Origin: Pseudomonadota bacterium
Lineage (GTDB): Bacteria; Myxococcota_A; UBA796; SXON01
Length of the DNA: 49,115 nucleotides
NCBI GenBank assembly: GCA_005778355.1
Contig: SXON01000168.1
Location: 1-49,115 of the forward strand
Direction of reading: 5' to 3'
Shown here: positions 1 through 41,051 of the stretch, in pieces
How the letters are laid out: the number at the start of each line of letters is the position of its first letter
Numbering within the stretch: the stretch's first letter is position 1
The notes under the pieces: generated by a model
What the model was told of the DNA's origin: nothing
The model's input: only the letters and a program-made list of their open reading frames with translations
Databases searched by the model: none
Made by a program: the position numbers and the translations under genes

Positions 1-44
1 CCGCCTACCGCGATCACGGCGTTGCCGCGCTGATCCGCCGGTGA
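1..44 (+). CDS. C-terminal end of an upstream gene (partial)
   Basis: An open frame enters from the left edge and reads AYRDHGVAALIRR before a TGA at 42-44. Thirteen codons are too few to assign a family. The codons are G/C-ending, as in neighbouring real genes, and no other feature explains this stretch, so it is probably the tail of a gene that starts outside the window. It could also be chance open frame. Confidence 0.35.
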   Translation, partial: AYRDHGVAALIRR

Positions 45-139
45 ATCTACGCGAGGGCGGTCGAGCGCGGGGCGTCAGGCCGGGGTGGCGACGGCGGGGA
101 GTGGCGGCCCACAGGAGGGCACGAGGTCGGCGGCGTCTA

Positions 140-37651: not shown

Positions 37652-37973
37652 GGAGAGAAGACCTCGCGCGGGGGGGCGCGGGCCTAACGCGGCGTGGGGC
37701 GTGGCGCCCGACTCCCCGGAGGGTCCGGCTCCAGAGCTCGAAGGCGGTCCCCGGCAGTCCCGCTCTGGGCCGCTCACCCCCGCGCCGGCGGCAACAACAC
37801 CGCCGCACCCGCCGGTCCCACCGACTTGTGGCCGCGATCCCGGCTCACCGCGGCAACAACAACTCCGCACCCGCCGGTCCCCTCGACTTGTGGCCGCGAT
37901 CCCGGCTCACCGCGGCAACAACGACGCCGCACCCGCCGGTCCCCCCGACTTGTTGCCGCGCTCCTGCTCGGGC
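37652..37973. other. Intergenic region holding repeat array A
   Basis: Between ppdK and the RAYT-like gene there is no credible coding sequence. The proximal part (37652-37789) is G/C-rich with degenerate fragments related to the 62-bp unit, such as a GCCGCTCACC-like piece near 37770. The distal part is the three-copy array at 37790-37960. Confidence 0.7.
37790..37960. repeat. Array A: three copies of a 62-bp hairpin repeat
   Basis: Units begin with GGCAACAAC at 37790, 37852 and 37914. The shared core ACTTGTGGCC (last copy ACTTGTTGCC) falls at 37824, 37886 and 37948, an exact 62-base period. Each unit contains a perfect GCCGCG/CGCGGC stem (for example 37831-37836 with 37849-37854) and a second GCGGC/GCCGC stem around the AACAAC segment. 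The last copy breaks off 14 bases before the stop codon of the RAYT-like gene. There are no unique spacers, so this is not CRISPR. Confidence 0.85.
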
Positions 37974-38777
37974 TCAAACCGAGGCGTGAGAGTAGTCGAA
38001 GGTGGCCCCGTCGCGGACGAAGGTCCCCTGCTCCGGCGGCGCCACGAGCGCCCGCAAGCCCATCTGAAGTCGCACCGCGCGGACCAAGGTCGGGTCGGCG
38101 GGCTCCCCTCGACAGTGTCGCACGGTTCGCGTCGCGACACCAAGCGCAGCTGCAAGATCGGCGGCGCTCAGGTCTCTGGGTGCGGCCGCCACGCAGGCAC
38201 GGCGCGCTTGCACGACGTCGGCCCCTCGCCCCCCAAGTCGCGACACAGCAATGGCCGCCGCCCCGGCGTCGGCCAGTTGGCGCAGGCAGAACGCGGGCTC
38301 CAGTCCCTCGATCCCCCAATGCGCGAGCAAGTCGGTCCGTTTCACGCGAGGGAGCAAGGCGCGCACGCGCTCGGCAAGCCACAGCCCGCGCGGACGCAAA
38401 CCAAGCAGGTCCGGCAGGCTCGTCCCCTCGCGGAAGGGGTCGGCGCCGACGCCGTGGTGAACGTCCTGCCGATGCACATAGCCGAGGGCGTTCTCCGCGT
38501 GCCAGGTGTCGTCGATCGACCGCACGCTCGGGTCGACCAAGCGAACGCCGAGTCGCGACCGTAACGACGAGCGTAGATCGTGGATGAATCGCGACACGGC
38601 AGGGCGCTCGCAAGCGAGCACCGCGTGGCCGTGGGTGTCGCCGAGGCCGAAGCCGAACAGCCCGTGGGGGCCGCCGTGTTCCAAGAGCGCGCGCGACCAC
38701 GCCCGGCGGCGACCGACGTCTGGCGCGAGGATCCGGTCGTCCTCGGCCCGGAACACGACTTGGTAGCCCAGCGGCAT
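37974..38777 (-). CDS. RAYT-like (REP-associated) Y1/HUH transposase
   Basis: Encodes 267 residues. The N-terminal 125 residues follow the TnpA_REP layout: YQVVFRAEDDRIL, a helical stretch, then the HUH motif as DTHGHAVL (H49-G-H51). The helix with the probable catalytic tyrosine is GYVHRQDVHHG (Y100), matching the YIHxNPVxxG signature of RAYTs, followed by DPFREGTSLPDLLG. Residues about 186-245 form a DnaA-C/HTH-like helical domain found in some RAYTs (LSAADLAAALGVATRTVRH). ATG 38777 is chosen because further upstream the frame enters array B. The gene lies between two 62-bp hairpin arrays, the arrangement expected for a RAYT with its REP elements. Such proteins cleave and join single-stranded REP hairpins and are usually non-self-mobile. 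Confidence 0.75.
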   Translation of the reverse strand: MPLGYQVVFRAEDDRILAPDVGRRRAWSRALLEHGGPHGLFGFGLGDTHGHAVLACERPAVSRFIHDLRSSLRSRLGVRLVDPSVRSIDDTWHAENALGYVHRQDVHHGVGADPFREGTSLPDLLGLRPRGLWLAERVRALLPRVKRTDLLAHWGIEGLEPAFCLRQLADAGAAAIAVSRLGGRGADVVQARRACVAAAPRDLSAADLAAALGVATRTVRHCRGEPADPTLVRAVRLQMGLRALVAPPEQGTFVRDGATFDYSHASV

Positions 38778-38844
38778 GGCGGCGGCAGGCTGGGCACCGG
38801 CGGCGTGCTCGTCAAGGGGTGACGGCGACTTTGGCCCTGGCCAC

Positions 38845-39064
38845 CGAACCCGGCGGTCCCCGCGACTTGTGGCCGGGGTCCGGCCTCCCGGCGGCAACAC
38901 CTCCATCGAACCCGGCGGTCCCCGCGACTTGTGGCCGGGATCCTGTCTCCCGGCGGCAACAACGACGCCGCACCCGCCGGTCCCACCGACTTGTGGCCGC
39001 GTTCCTGCCTCCCGGCGGCAACAACGACGCCGCACCCGCCGGTCCCACCGACTTGTGGCCGGGA
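38845..39064. repeat. Array B: four copies of the 62-bp hairpin repeat
   Basis: The core ACTTGTGGCC recurs at 38865, 38927, 38989 and 39051, exactly 62 bases apart and in the same orientation as array A. Copies 1 and 2 form one subtype (CGAACCCGGCGG lead) and copies 3 and 4 another, close to array A. In copy 2 the stem is GCCGGGA/TCCCGGC (38934-38940 with 38948-38954) around a 7-base loop. Array A has GCCGCG/CGCGGC at the equivalent place, a paired change that keeps the hairpin. The array begins 68 bases before the RAYT start codon. Confidence 0.85.
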
Positions 39065-39170
39065 ACGCGGGACCGATGGCGCTCACCGCCTCCTGGCAGC
39101 GATACCTCCGCCGATGCCGCCGCCCCCCCACGACTCACCGCCATCGCGCCCCGCCTCGATACTGGGCCAC

Positions 39171-41051
39171 ATGCTGCTCGCGCTGTTTGGCGGTTGCCTC
39201 ATCAACACGGAGCTGTACCTCGAGCGCATGGCGGCGGTCACCGACGACGACGGCGACGGCTACAACGATGACGAGGGCGACTGCGCCGACGCCGACCCGT
39301 CGCGACACCCCGGTGCCGCCGAGTCCTGCGACGACGAGGACAACGACTGCGACGGCTACATCGATGAGGACATCACAGCGGTAGAGGTGTGCGACGACCT
39401 CGACAACGACTGCGACGGCGAGACCGACGAGGGCATCACCGACGTCGAGGTGTGCGACGAGCTCGACAACGATTGCGACGGCGAGGTCGACGAGGAACTC
39501 GACCAGACCTGGTACCTCGACGGCGATGGAGACGGCTTCGGCAACGCGGACCGCACCAGCGTCGCCTGTGCGCAGCCCGATGGTCATGTCGCGACCGGCG
39601 ACGATTGCGACGACACCGACGAAACGGTCTTCCCCGGCGCCATCGACAGTTGCAACGATCTCGACGACCACTGCGACGGCGAGACCGATGAGGAGCTCGA
39701 GACCAACGCCGGCTACACCGACGCCGACACCGATGGCTACGGCGCGGGCGACTACGCCGAGGGCTGCGAGGTGCCGGCCACAGTCGTGGCCACCGGCGAC
39801 GACTGCGACGACGCCGACCCCGCGGTCAACCCGGGCGCGGGCGAGGCCATCGACGGTCGCGACGAGGATTGCTCGGGCGCCGTGGACGACCTGAGCGCCG
39901 AGGACGACGCCATCACGTTCGTGACCAGCGAGCCCTACGGTTGGGCCGGTAGCTCCATCCTCTGGGCCGATCTCGATGAGGATGGCGCAGACGACCTGGT
40001 GTTCGGCGCGCCCGGTCGAGAAAGCGGTACCGACAACTGCGCCGTCTACGCCGTGTACGCCGCCGACCTCGCGAGCGGGGACATGGCGCGGGCGTCGACG
40101 GTGCTGGCAGGGTCGGGCACGCGGTGTGGGGCCTCCATTGCCAACGACGACACCCTCCTCCTGGTGGGCGCCCCCGAGAACGACGGCGGATCGACCACCT
40201 CCTTCGATGGAAACAGCCTATCGACCGTCGCGACCTGGTCGCACGCGACGGCCGGCGACGCCGGGAGCGCACTCGCGACGGGTGGCGACATTGACGGCGA
40301 CGGGCTCAACGACGTGGCCGTGGGCGCCCCGTCAATCAGCAACAGTGAGCCTCGCGACGGCACGGTGGTGATCCTCCCCGCCAATGCCAGCAGCGGCGAA
40401 CTGCTCGACCTCGCGACGGCCACCATCGTGGGCACCACGGCGCGCCAGCAATTCGGTGATCGTCTTGCCCTGGGCGACCTCGACGGCGACGGCTACGCCG
40501 ACCTCGCGGTGGGCGCACCCTCGGCGGAGGGTGGTGGCTGGGCCTGGCTCTTTCTCGGGGGCACCAGCCTGGCGGCGAGCGCGGCCGATGCCCACGCCAG
40601 CTACTCGGGCGGCGAGTATGCGACGGCCGGGAGCGCTGTGGCTGTCGCGACGGACTGGGACGGGGACGGGACTCGGGAGTGGTGGGTGGGGGCCTCCGGA
40701 GAGTCGGACGCCTTCGCCTTCGGGCCGAGCGCCCGTGGCGCCTTGTCCGCCGCCGACGCCCTCATCAGCGTGACCGGCGAGACCGGAATCCTCGCCGCCG
40801 AGGCCCTCGCCGGTAGTACCAGTGGCTTGCTCGTTGGGGCGCCTGCGGCGATGGGTCGCGACGGCGTTGCCGCCTGGTTCGCCGCCCCGGCCCCGGGGAC
40901 AGCGTTCGACGATGCGACCGCCACGCTCGCCGGCGAAGCGGGCGCGGAGGCGGGCAGCGGCGTGGCCCTCTCGTCCGGTTGGTGGGCCGTTGGCGCTCCC
41001 GAAGCCGGTGCGACCGACGAGGGGGCGGTCTACCTCGTTGCCCTCCCCTGA
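39171..41051 (+). CDS. MopE-like / FG-GAP (integrin-type) lipoprotein
   Basis: Encodes 626 residues. MLLALFGGC is an ultra-short lipoprotein signal (Cys9). Residues about 25-250 contain at least five MopE-type metal-binding motifs (DDDGDGYNDDEGDC, DNDCDGETDEG, DGDGDGFG, DTDGYGAGDY). The rest is an integrin-alpha-like FG-GAP propeller (LVFGAPGRESG, DIDGDGLNDVAVGAPS, DLDGDGYADLAVGAPSAEGG). It is probably a calcium- or copper-binding surface protein. A -10-like GATACT lies seven bases before the ATG with no Shine-Dalgarno sequence, indicating a leaderless start. The gene follows array B by 106 bases and ends three bases from glyS on the opposite strand. Confidence 0.86.
   Translation: MLLALFGGCLINTELYLERMAAVTDDDGDGYNDDEGDCADADPSRHPGAAESCDDEDNDCDGYIDEDITAVEVCDDLDNDCDGETDEGITDVEVCDELDNDCDGEVDEELDQTWYLDGDGDGFGNADRTSVACAQPDGHVATGDDCDDTDETVFPGAIDSCNDLDDHCDGETDEELETNAGYTDADTDGYGAGDYAEGCEVPATVVATGDDCDDADPAVNPGAGEAIDGRDEDCSGAVDDLSAEDDAITFVTSEPYGWAGSSILWADLDEDGADDLVFGAPGRESGTDNCAVYAVYAADLASGDMARASTVLAGSGTRCGASIANDDTLLLVGAPENDGGSTTSFDGNSLSTVATWSHATAGDAGSALATGGDIDGDGLNDVAVGAPSISNSEPRDGTVVILPANASSGELLDLATATIVGTTARQQFGDRLALGDLDGDGYADLAVGAPSAEGGGWAWLFLGGTSLAASAADAHASYSGGEYATAGSAVAVATDWDGDGTREWWVGASGESDAFAFGPSARGALSAADALISVTGETGILAAEALAGSTSGLLVGAPAAMGRDGVAAWFAAPAPGTAFDDATATLAGEAGAEAGSGVALSSGWWAVGAPEAGATDEGAVYLVALP

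Follow-up and report, generated by a model that had tools for sequence, protein, structure and literature searches.

What is a transposase-like gene doing between two short trains of hairpins that all point the same way, and do the hairpins belong to it? The gene lies in a stretch of 49,115 nt, here called the window, which is contig C152 of a 6.6 Mb genome in 252 contigs. An initial annotation, made from the letters of the window, described a RAYT-like HUH transposase bracketed by two REP-like arrays. The answer favoured here, at rather better than even confidence, is a divergent single-tyrosine HUH (Y1) nuclease of the TnpA/RAYT superfamily that has the 46-nt hairpins as its cognate targets, arrayed on one face of the duplex. 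Computation gives (i) kinship with Y1 nucleases, with the catalytic residues kept, (ii) private repeats laid out in arrays of one orientation, and (iii) array periods close to whole helical turns.

Layout of the locus

Three and four hairpin units lie around the gene (Table 1), and their coordinates bear out the common orientation and exact 62-bp period that the initial annotation had described. Array A was said to end 14 bases from the stop codon; it is indeed close to it, at a measured distance of 15 bases. Tandem Repeats Finder scores the arrays at 305 and 313. The outer arms of the unit are formed by CGGCAACAA pairing with TTGTTGCCG. Five of the six better-preserved window units carry TTGTGGCCG, which is one T-to-G mismatch in the outer stem, and among these six the stem is perfect only at 37913-37958. 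Folded as DNA, two window units give z -1.73 and z -0.57, the latter hardly above shuffles.

Two other readings of the arrays can be set aside: a CRISPR is ruled out by spacers that repeat within an array, and a coding repeat by a period of 62, which is not a multiple of three as 51 of the 53 control arrays described below are. The neighbouring gene does contain a coding repeat, of 63 bp and with DNDCDG motifs (window 39327-39496), which has no relation to the hairpins.

Table 1. Features of the gene, its protein and the flanking arrays (window coordinates, or residues where stated)
Feature	Position	Strand	Remark
Divergent Y1/HUH (RAYT-like) gene	37974-38777	-	267 aa; ATG at 38777
Y1 core of the 267-aa protein	residues ~1-115		H49, H51, Y100, Q104, H108
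HTH-like tail of the 267-aa protein	residues ~190-220
Array A, whole	37789-37958	+	three units; 3' side (downstream) of gene
Array A unit 1	37789-37834	+	46 nt, period 62
Array A spacer	37835-37850	.	16 bp; identical in both A gaps
Array A unit 2	37851-37896	+	46 nt
Array A unit 3	37913-37958	+	perfect outer stem; 15 bases past stop codon
Array B, whole	38830-39061	+	four units; upstream of gene
Array B unit 1	38830-38875	+	5' half degenerate; covariance-model match 38823-38875, E 0.0024
Array B unit 2	38892-38937	+
Array B spacer	38938-38953	.	16 bp; 11/16 bases equal to A's
Array B unit 3	38954-38999	+
Array B unit 4	39016-39061	+

A divergent member of the Y1 superfamily

The HGH motif and the stretch YVHRQDVHHG pointed out in the initial annotation are both present in the protein, as H49-x-H51 and around Y100. 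The DnaA-C-like tail claimed alongside them is not borne out: DnaA_C is unmatched at E<=1, and the tail is a weak match to HTH_23 (E 0.005, below the cut-off). A Pfam scan of the protein leaves Y1_Tnp (PF01797) unmatched at E<=1 and returns weak HTH matches alone, while an NCBIfam scan returns a single match at chance level. Among 34 members of the protein family, two match Y1_Tnp at E<=1, the better with 19.1 bits against a gathering score of 23, and 21 match HTH_23 at the same threshold.

R25, H49, H51, H93, Y100, H108, L125 and P143 are invariant in the 34 aligned members. A wider alignment of 93 members (95 family genes minus two fragments) has H49 in 89, H51 in 91, Y100 in 89 and H108 in 89, with H107 in 48; position 104 holds Q in 69 members and N in another 21, hence one or the other in 90. 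The Y---NP motif of RAYTs is absent, and in the N104-bearing rows listed from the 34-member alignment the next residue is A or D, not P. The proteins are mostly ∼245-290 aa long.

AlphaFold2 (five sequences) yields a modest model, with a mean pLDDT of 70 and residues 106-148 below 50, in which strands and helices follow the Y1 order, with the HUH motif on a strand and the tyrosine on the next helix. The initial annotation had staked its reading on an HUH fold, and the predicted fold is of HUH type. Foldseek ranks 4er8_A first, a REP-associated transposase with REP hairpin, at a weak E 2.5e-3, with ISDra2 TnpA at rank 3, IS608 TnpA from rank 11, and acylphosphatases and others interspersed; no match falls below E 0.001. 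Profile comparison with hhalign, for which all proteins except that of contig C95 were collected with the family's own profile, aligns the family with six RAYT-like proteins at 96.8% (E 2.6e-10), the HUH motif and tyrosine in register, and with four Y---Q--HH proteins at 94.5% (E 7.5e-8). A single canonical RAYT is aligned in the right register at a probability of 0.4%, the comparison becoming significant once six sequences are used. These six include the canonical RAYT of the same genome (C95) and one protein with no Pfam match whatever. When seven comparison proteins are scanned with Pfam, four match Y1_Tnp at E<=1.4e-4, two more weakly (3.5e-4 and 0.082) and one not at all.

The C95 gene itself (L104:1459-2418) is a canonical-looking RAYT, with MPNHYHLM and YIHLNPVE, and has no tandem array in its 600-bp flanks.

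Family genes and their private arrays

Three paralogues occur in the same genome, on contigs C180 (53% identical), C226 (55%, interrupted) and C149 (44%), with hairpins that differ from those of the window. The family is found in 22 of 58 related genomes searched, and its profile matches 41 of 377 genomes sampled from the phylum with six candidates scored per genome, some of them over the Y1 core only; the genome of the window is included in both counts. The named relatives are Deltaproteobacteria MAGs and one Polyangiaceae MAG (4 loci). The C149 paralogue (L031:2878-3837) has a ten-copy array of 95-bp hairpin repeats upstream of the gene. The C180 paralogue (L029:1646-1814, 1863-2633) has three hairpins with the stem GGAACCAAGTC, spaced by 63 and 61 bp, and its counterpart in the relative G010 is 83% identical and has nearly the same hairpin.

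Flanks were compared for 95 family genes, from 82 of 98 places in related genomes, 12 loci of the phylum sample and one locus of a named relative. An array here means a tandem repeat of period 45-209 that lies within 600 bp and is detected with 40-nt windows at 80% identity; 62 of the 95 genes have one and 33 have none at this threshold. Of the 171 flanks that reach 300 bp, 63 contain an array; of 236 control windows, almost all taken from the loci of family genes themselves, 5 do (Fisher p 9e-22). Arrays occur both upstream (34/83 flanks) and downstream (29/88). Where arrays could be compared across the gene, orientation agreed in 16 of 17 cases (12 loci), with one tie, none opposite, and L064 and L157 near ties; given this single orientation, the inverted pairs in which REPs occur (REPIN/BIME) are not found. 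The period is equal on both sides at five of the 12 loci with two-sided arrays (the window, 62; L075 and L091, 51; L152 and L192, 73). Under RNA parameters, the mean z of the most stable 50-nt window is -3.2 for units and -1.6 for distal controls (n=74 each).

When two proteins are at least 0.7 identical, their units match at 0.7 or more in 10 of 20 comparisons; when the proteins are below 0.4, such matches make up ∼0.4% of 5,880. Judged by these comparisons, each family gene has a private repeat type. On contigs of several relatives, family genes often lie no more than a few hundred bases from a contig end, for example at L072, L081, L086, L092 and L100. Arrays may break short-read assemblies, in which case true array sizes could be underestimated.

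The 62-bp unit beyond the window

The initial annotation had proposed a genome search for the unit, expecting a dispersed REP-like element. A pattern search finds it on C11, C49, C238 and C250 as well, with a unit spacing of 62 bp in all four arrays. Search with a covariance model brings the total to at least 24 places (E<1e-3; seven contigs), 22 of them also the copies from which the model was built, and adds solo copies on C92 and C231; the figure is a lower bound, since 150 of 11,380 first-look candidates were scored. The unit is thus dispersed as expected, at low copy number and in the form of tandem arrays. Tandem Repeats Finder reports none of 62 bp for C11, C180 and C226, whose units are few or diverged; it does find the C149 array.

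Read by eye, each array has a hairpin as its first and its last element. Spacers are alike within six of the eight arrays read (A, B, C250, C238, and C82 and C2 of G010) and mostly unlike between arrays; C11 and C49 have decayed arrays in which each spacer is unlike the next and the 62-bp period is kept. A GT[AG]G at the hairpin foot occurs in one of 33 units of the window's hairpin class (24 from the same genome and nine from G010, both strands), namely the last unit of C11.

Within the genus, the unit is present at E<=0.001 in two of 11 genomes, that of the window and G010. The ppdK-like neighbour gene (name read by eye) is 95% identical in G010, whose arrays on C82 (five units) and C2 (three) retain the 62-bp period, with a solo unit on C383; the flanks of these arrays do not match the array loci fetched from the genome of the window. 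In 9 of 27 sequences, stem pairs 5-42 and 6-41 are G-C instead of A-T, both partners having changed; the two compensated changes probably arose in a single event. Pairs with a two-sided change are no more numerous than in 500 shuffles; the counts of paired cells and of cells with both partners changed are higher than in any of the 500. No cognate gene of the 62-bp arrays was found in the G010 assembly, where the ppdK contig begins 118 bp upstream of the match. The reading of the initial annotation was to fall if the unit were absent elsewhere and unrelated genomes carried the arrays without the gene; the unit does recur, but the relative G010 has arrays without an assembled gene.

In another relative, G008, the region corresponding to window 37708-40979 (array A, gene and array B) is absent and the ppdK-like gene adjoins a glyS-like gene. 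This is not a clean empty site, since the gap also removes most of the gene for the DNDCDG-repeat protein, and a clean IS insertion is ruled out by the imprecise difference. Plasmid carriage of close homologues is likewise ruled out, the 267-aa protein having no tblastn match in the plasmid collection.

Array periods tend to follow the helical repeat

Beyond what could be seen in the initial annotation, array periods across the family are quantised by ∼10.4 bp, that is, by the helical repeat, given as 10.4 or 10.5 bp for B-DNA (PMC6907758, PMC6639932). They cluster near 51-52, 62-64, 73-74, 82-83, 95, 116, 124-127, 135-137, 147, 157, 165-168 and 175-178 bp. For 69 periods from 62 loci, the best trial period in a scan from 6 to 16 is 10.5 (R 0.75), and 14 collapsed classes reach R 0.85 near 10.4, a value attained by 1 of 5,000 random sets at any trial period and by none at 10.3-10.5. 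These classes were formed with nothing left out. Seven values judged to be low-complexity or coding were removed for further tests. Of what remained, the 27 periods above 64 bp reach R 0.66 at 10.35, a value equalled by none of 20,000 random sets; sorting into 13 classes yields R 0.80 at 10.4, and into the 20 finest classes R 0.58. The phase is near zero, so that the period itself is close to a whole number of turns; periods of 48, 60, 70, 66 and 98 are off phase. Spacing differences within a locus also tend to whole turns (n=18 with five low-complexity loci left out; V 0.49; p ∼0.002 at 10.4 and 0.008 at 10.5), with clear misses at L103, L160 and L196. Periods are not independent of each other, 51-52 bp accounting for 24 of 59 loci, mostly from one clade. 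In this clade the period is constant though most unit sequences no longer match, so that length seems to be constrained.

Control arrays behave differently as a set. In 800 kb of family-bearing genomes, 51 of 53 have periods that are multiples of three, with R 0.04-0.05 at 10.3-10.5, and 378 kb of three genomes without the family hold seven arrays, all multiples of three. About five control arrays are non-coding by eye, with 63, 82 and 148 bp near whole turns and 69 and 69 bp not, too few for the phasing to be called peculiar to the family. Among the control arrays, a 63-bp one in G019 (L209:11514-11648) and an 82-bp one in G006 (L199:4569-4731) are apparently non-coding and may be dispersed arrays of other family members. 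At the Y---Q--HH Y1 genes L138 and L139 (G250), the strongest repeats, of 70 and 68 bp in the same 1.4-kb stretch, are off phase.

Relation to known systems

Quentin et al. (2018, PMC6006769) recognise three classes, with twelve subclasses, among TnpA_Y1 proteins. RAYTs (TnpA_REP, class 2) share with the family the HUH-tyrosine core and a predicted fold nearest to 4er8, hairpins that flank the gene, one hairpin type per gene, and copies elsewhere in the genome. The differences are these: Y---Q/N--HH here against Y---NP in RAYTs (PMC6006769), a GT[AG]G foot in 1/33 units, head-to-tail units of single orientation against the inverted pairs of REPs, REPINs and BIMEs, at least 24 places against the usual >100 REP copies, a whole-turn period and a long tail. 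Class 2 proteins were first retrieved with PF01797 according to the same source, whereas the two of 34 family members that touch this profile both fall below its cut-off. The label of a RAYT-like HUH transposase therefore holds as far as predicted fold and profile comparison go, and fails on Y---NP, the GT[AG]G foot and inverted REP pairs; because several RAYT-defining features are lacking, the protein is better called a relative of RAYTs than a member.

The motif Y---Q--HH of the window protein (among 93 members, Q104 in 69, H107 in 48 and H108 in 89) is that of subclass 1.2, described as having a median of 148 aa, as mostly from Cyanobacteria and Bacteroidetes and as lacking REP (PMC6006769), in contrast with the 267 aa of the window protein and the arrays at 62 of 95 family genes. 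A C-terminal HTH_23-like domain recalls subclass 2.1 (TIRYT), for which Y---NP-type motifs and no nearby REP-like sequences are described (PMC6006769). Y---Q--HH as in subclass 1.2, an HTH tail like that of 2.1, and REP-like repeats are combined in this family, which fits none of the subclasses compared and is a new branch rather than a standard RAYT. IS200/IS605 TnpA (subclass 1.1) shares the Y---Q motif and hairpins on the same strand on both sides; the family differs in its long tail, its tandem arrays and the lack of near-identical copies within the genome, where paralogues are 53, 55 and 44% identical. Plasmid iterons, direct repeats of ∼20 bp at whole-turn spacing beside the gene of a DNA-binding initiator, are not hairpins. 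The likeness lies in direct repeats at whole helical turns beside a gene, and the difference in units that are hairpins, with a period of 62 in the window, and that imply no replication origin.

Tandem arrays around such a gene had been called undescribed in the initial annotation. For the layout this goes too far, as tandem REP clusters beside RAYTs are known in Pseudomonas fluorescens (Bertels and Rainey 2011, PMC3116915); the REP spacings given there (71, 72, 110 and 112 bp) do not all fit the phasing. As for the phasing itself, none of the papers listed in searches of the open-access literature was recognised as treating it for REP or RAYT arrays, an absence that is not proof.

Competing explanations

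The arrays could owe nothing to the protein, a hairpin beside a RAYT-like gene having been multiplied by ordinary slippage or unequal exchange and the phasing stemming from the geometry of exchange or of cruciforms. Spacers that are alike within six of eight arrays and mostly unlike between them are what local duplication gives, REP clusters tandemly repeated together with flanking DNA have been described (PMC3116915, PMC3733652), and among the control arrays that lie away from family genes and seem to be non-coding, some (63, 82 and 148 bp) are near whole turns. This origin is nonetheless judged unlikely: the 62-bp period recurs in six arrays of the same genome and two of G010 with different spacers, it holds in C11 and C49 where successive spacers differ, 51-52 bp persists in 24 of 59 loci whose units mostly do not match in sequence, and the seven arrays of the family-free genomes (378 kb) are all multiples of three. 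A doubtful but more serious contender is a domesticated protein, its arrays being an operator or chromosome-handling site (iteron-like, or of the gyrase/HU type that has been suggested for REPs) that is bound and now immobile. Whole-turn spacing in one orientation would fit cooperative binding to duplex DNA, and the position of arrays at the start or end of the gene, the HTH_23 matches in 21 of 34 members at E<=1, the low copy number and the discussion of BIMEs as supercoiling barriers (PMC6907758) all point the same way. Yet the catalytic residues are kept in ∼95% of 93 members, palindromic units with compensated changes exceed the needs of a duplex operator, and arrays lie on other contigs too.

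Two further readings have little probability. Hairpins on one strand at both ends are the geometry of IS608, and the whole block might be an IS200/IS605-like mobile element with multiplied ends. The same orientation on both sides is closer to IS200/IS605 ends than to REPtrons, and the relative G008 does without window 37708-40979. The idea is improbable, as the genome holds no near-identical copies, which speaks against an active IS, but paralogues at 44-55% identity with other hairpins, and the G008 gap takes most of the neighbouring repeat-protein gene. Least probable of all is that the arrays act as RNA, as transcribed hairpins controlling the mRNA of the gene or its neighbour; array A starts 15 bases past the stop codon and units fold better than distal controls under RNA parameters, but helical phasing has no obvious meaning in RNA and arrays are about equally frequent upstream (34/83 flanks) and downstream (29/88).

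A proposed phased row of targets

With a Y1 nuclease and cognate hairpins as the favoured reading, the Y1 domain would cut and rejoin one strand of the hairpin, and this activity would have copied hairpins to a few other sites of the genome. With at least 24 places, the unit has few copies for a mobile repeat. Neighbouring units may be held as duplex by the HTH-like tail or by a dimer, and the spacings made or kept would be those at which units line up along one helix face. The arrays would then act as a row of phased binding sites that doubles as the substrate of the enzyme. A bolder version, put forward tentatively and on balance doubtful, is a new class of Y1 HUH enzymes acting on duplex arrays, in which the enzyme or its HTH tail sets a whole-turn copy distance when laying copies down. 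If this is true, hairpin, spacer and period all evolve while the count of turns stays an integer, and a transposase-derived 'ruler' would be writing arrays of phased binding sites into the chromosome.

Whole-turn spacing predicts recognition of several units in duplex form, which a purely single-strand view of Y1 enzymes does not require, and the spacing rule could be tested with a few synthetic arrays. In 2021 the spread of REP sequences was still called poorly understood (PMC8266576). Many divergent paralogues, each with its own repeats in arrays that favour whole-turn spacing, would give a direct handle on that spread.
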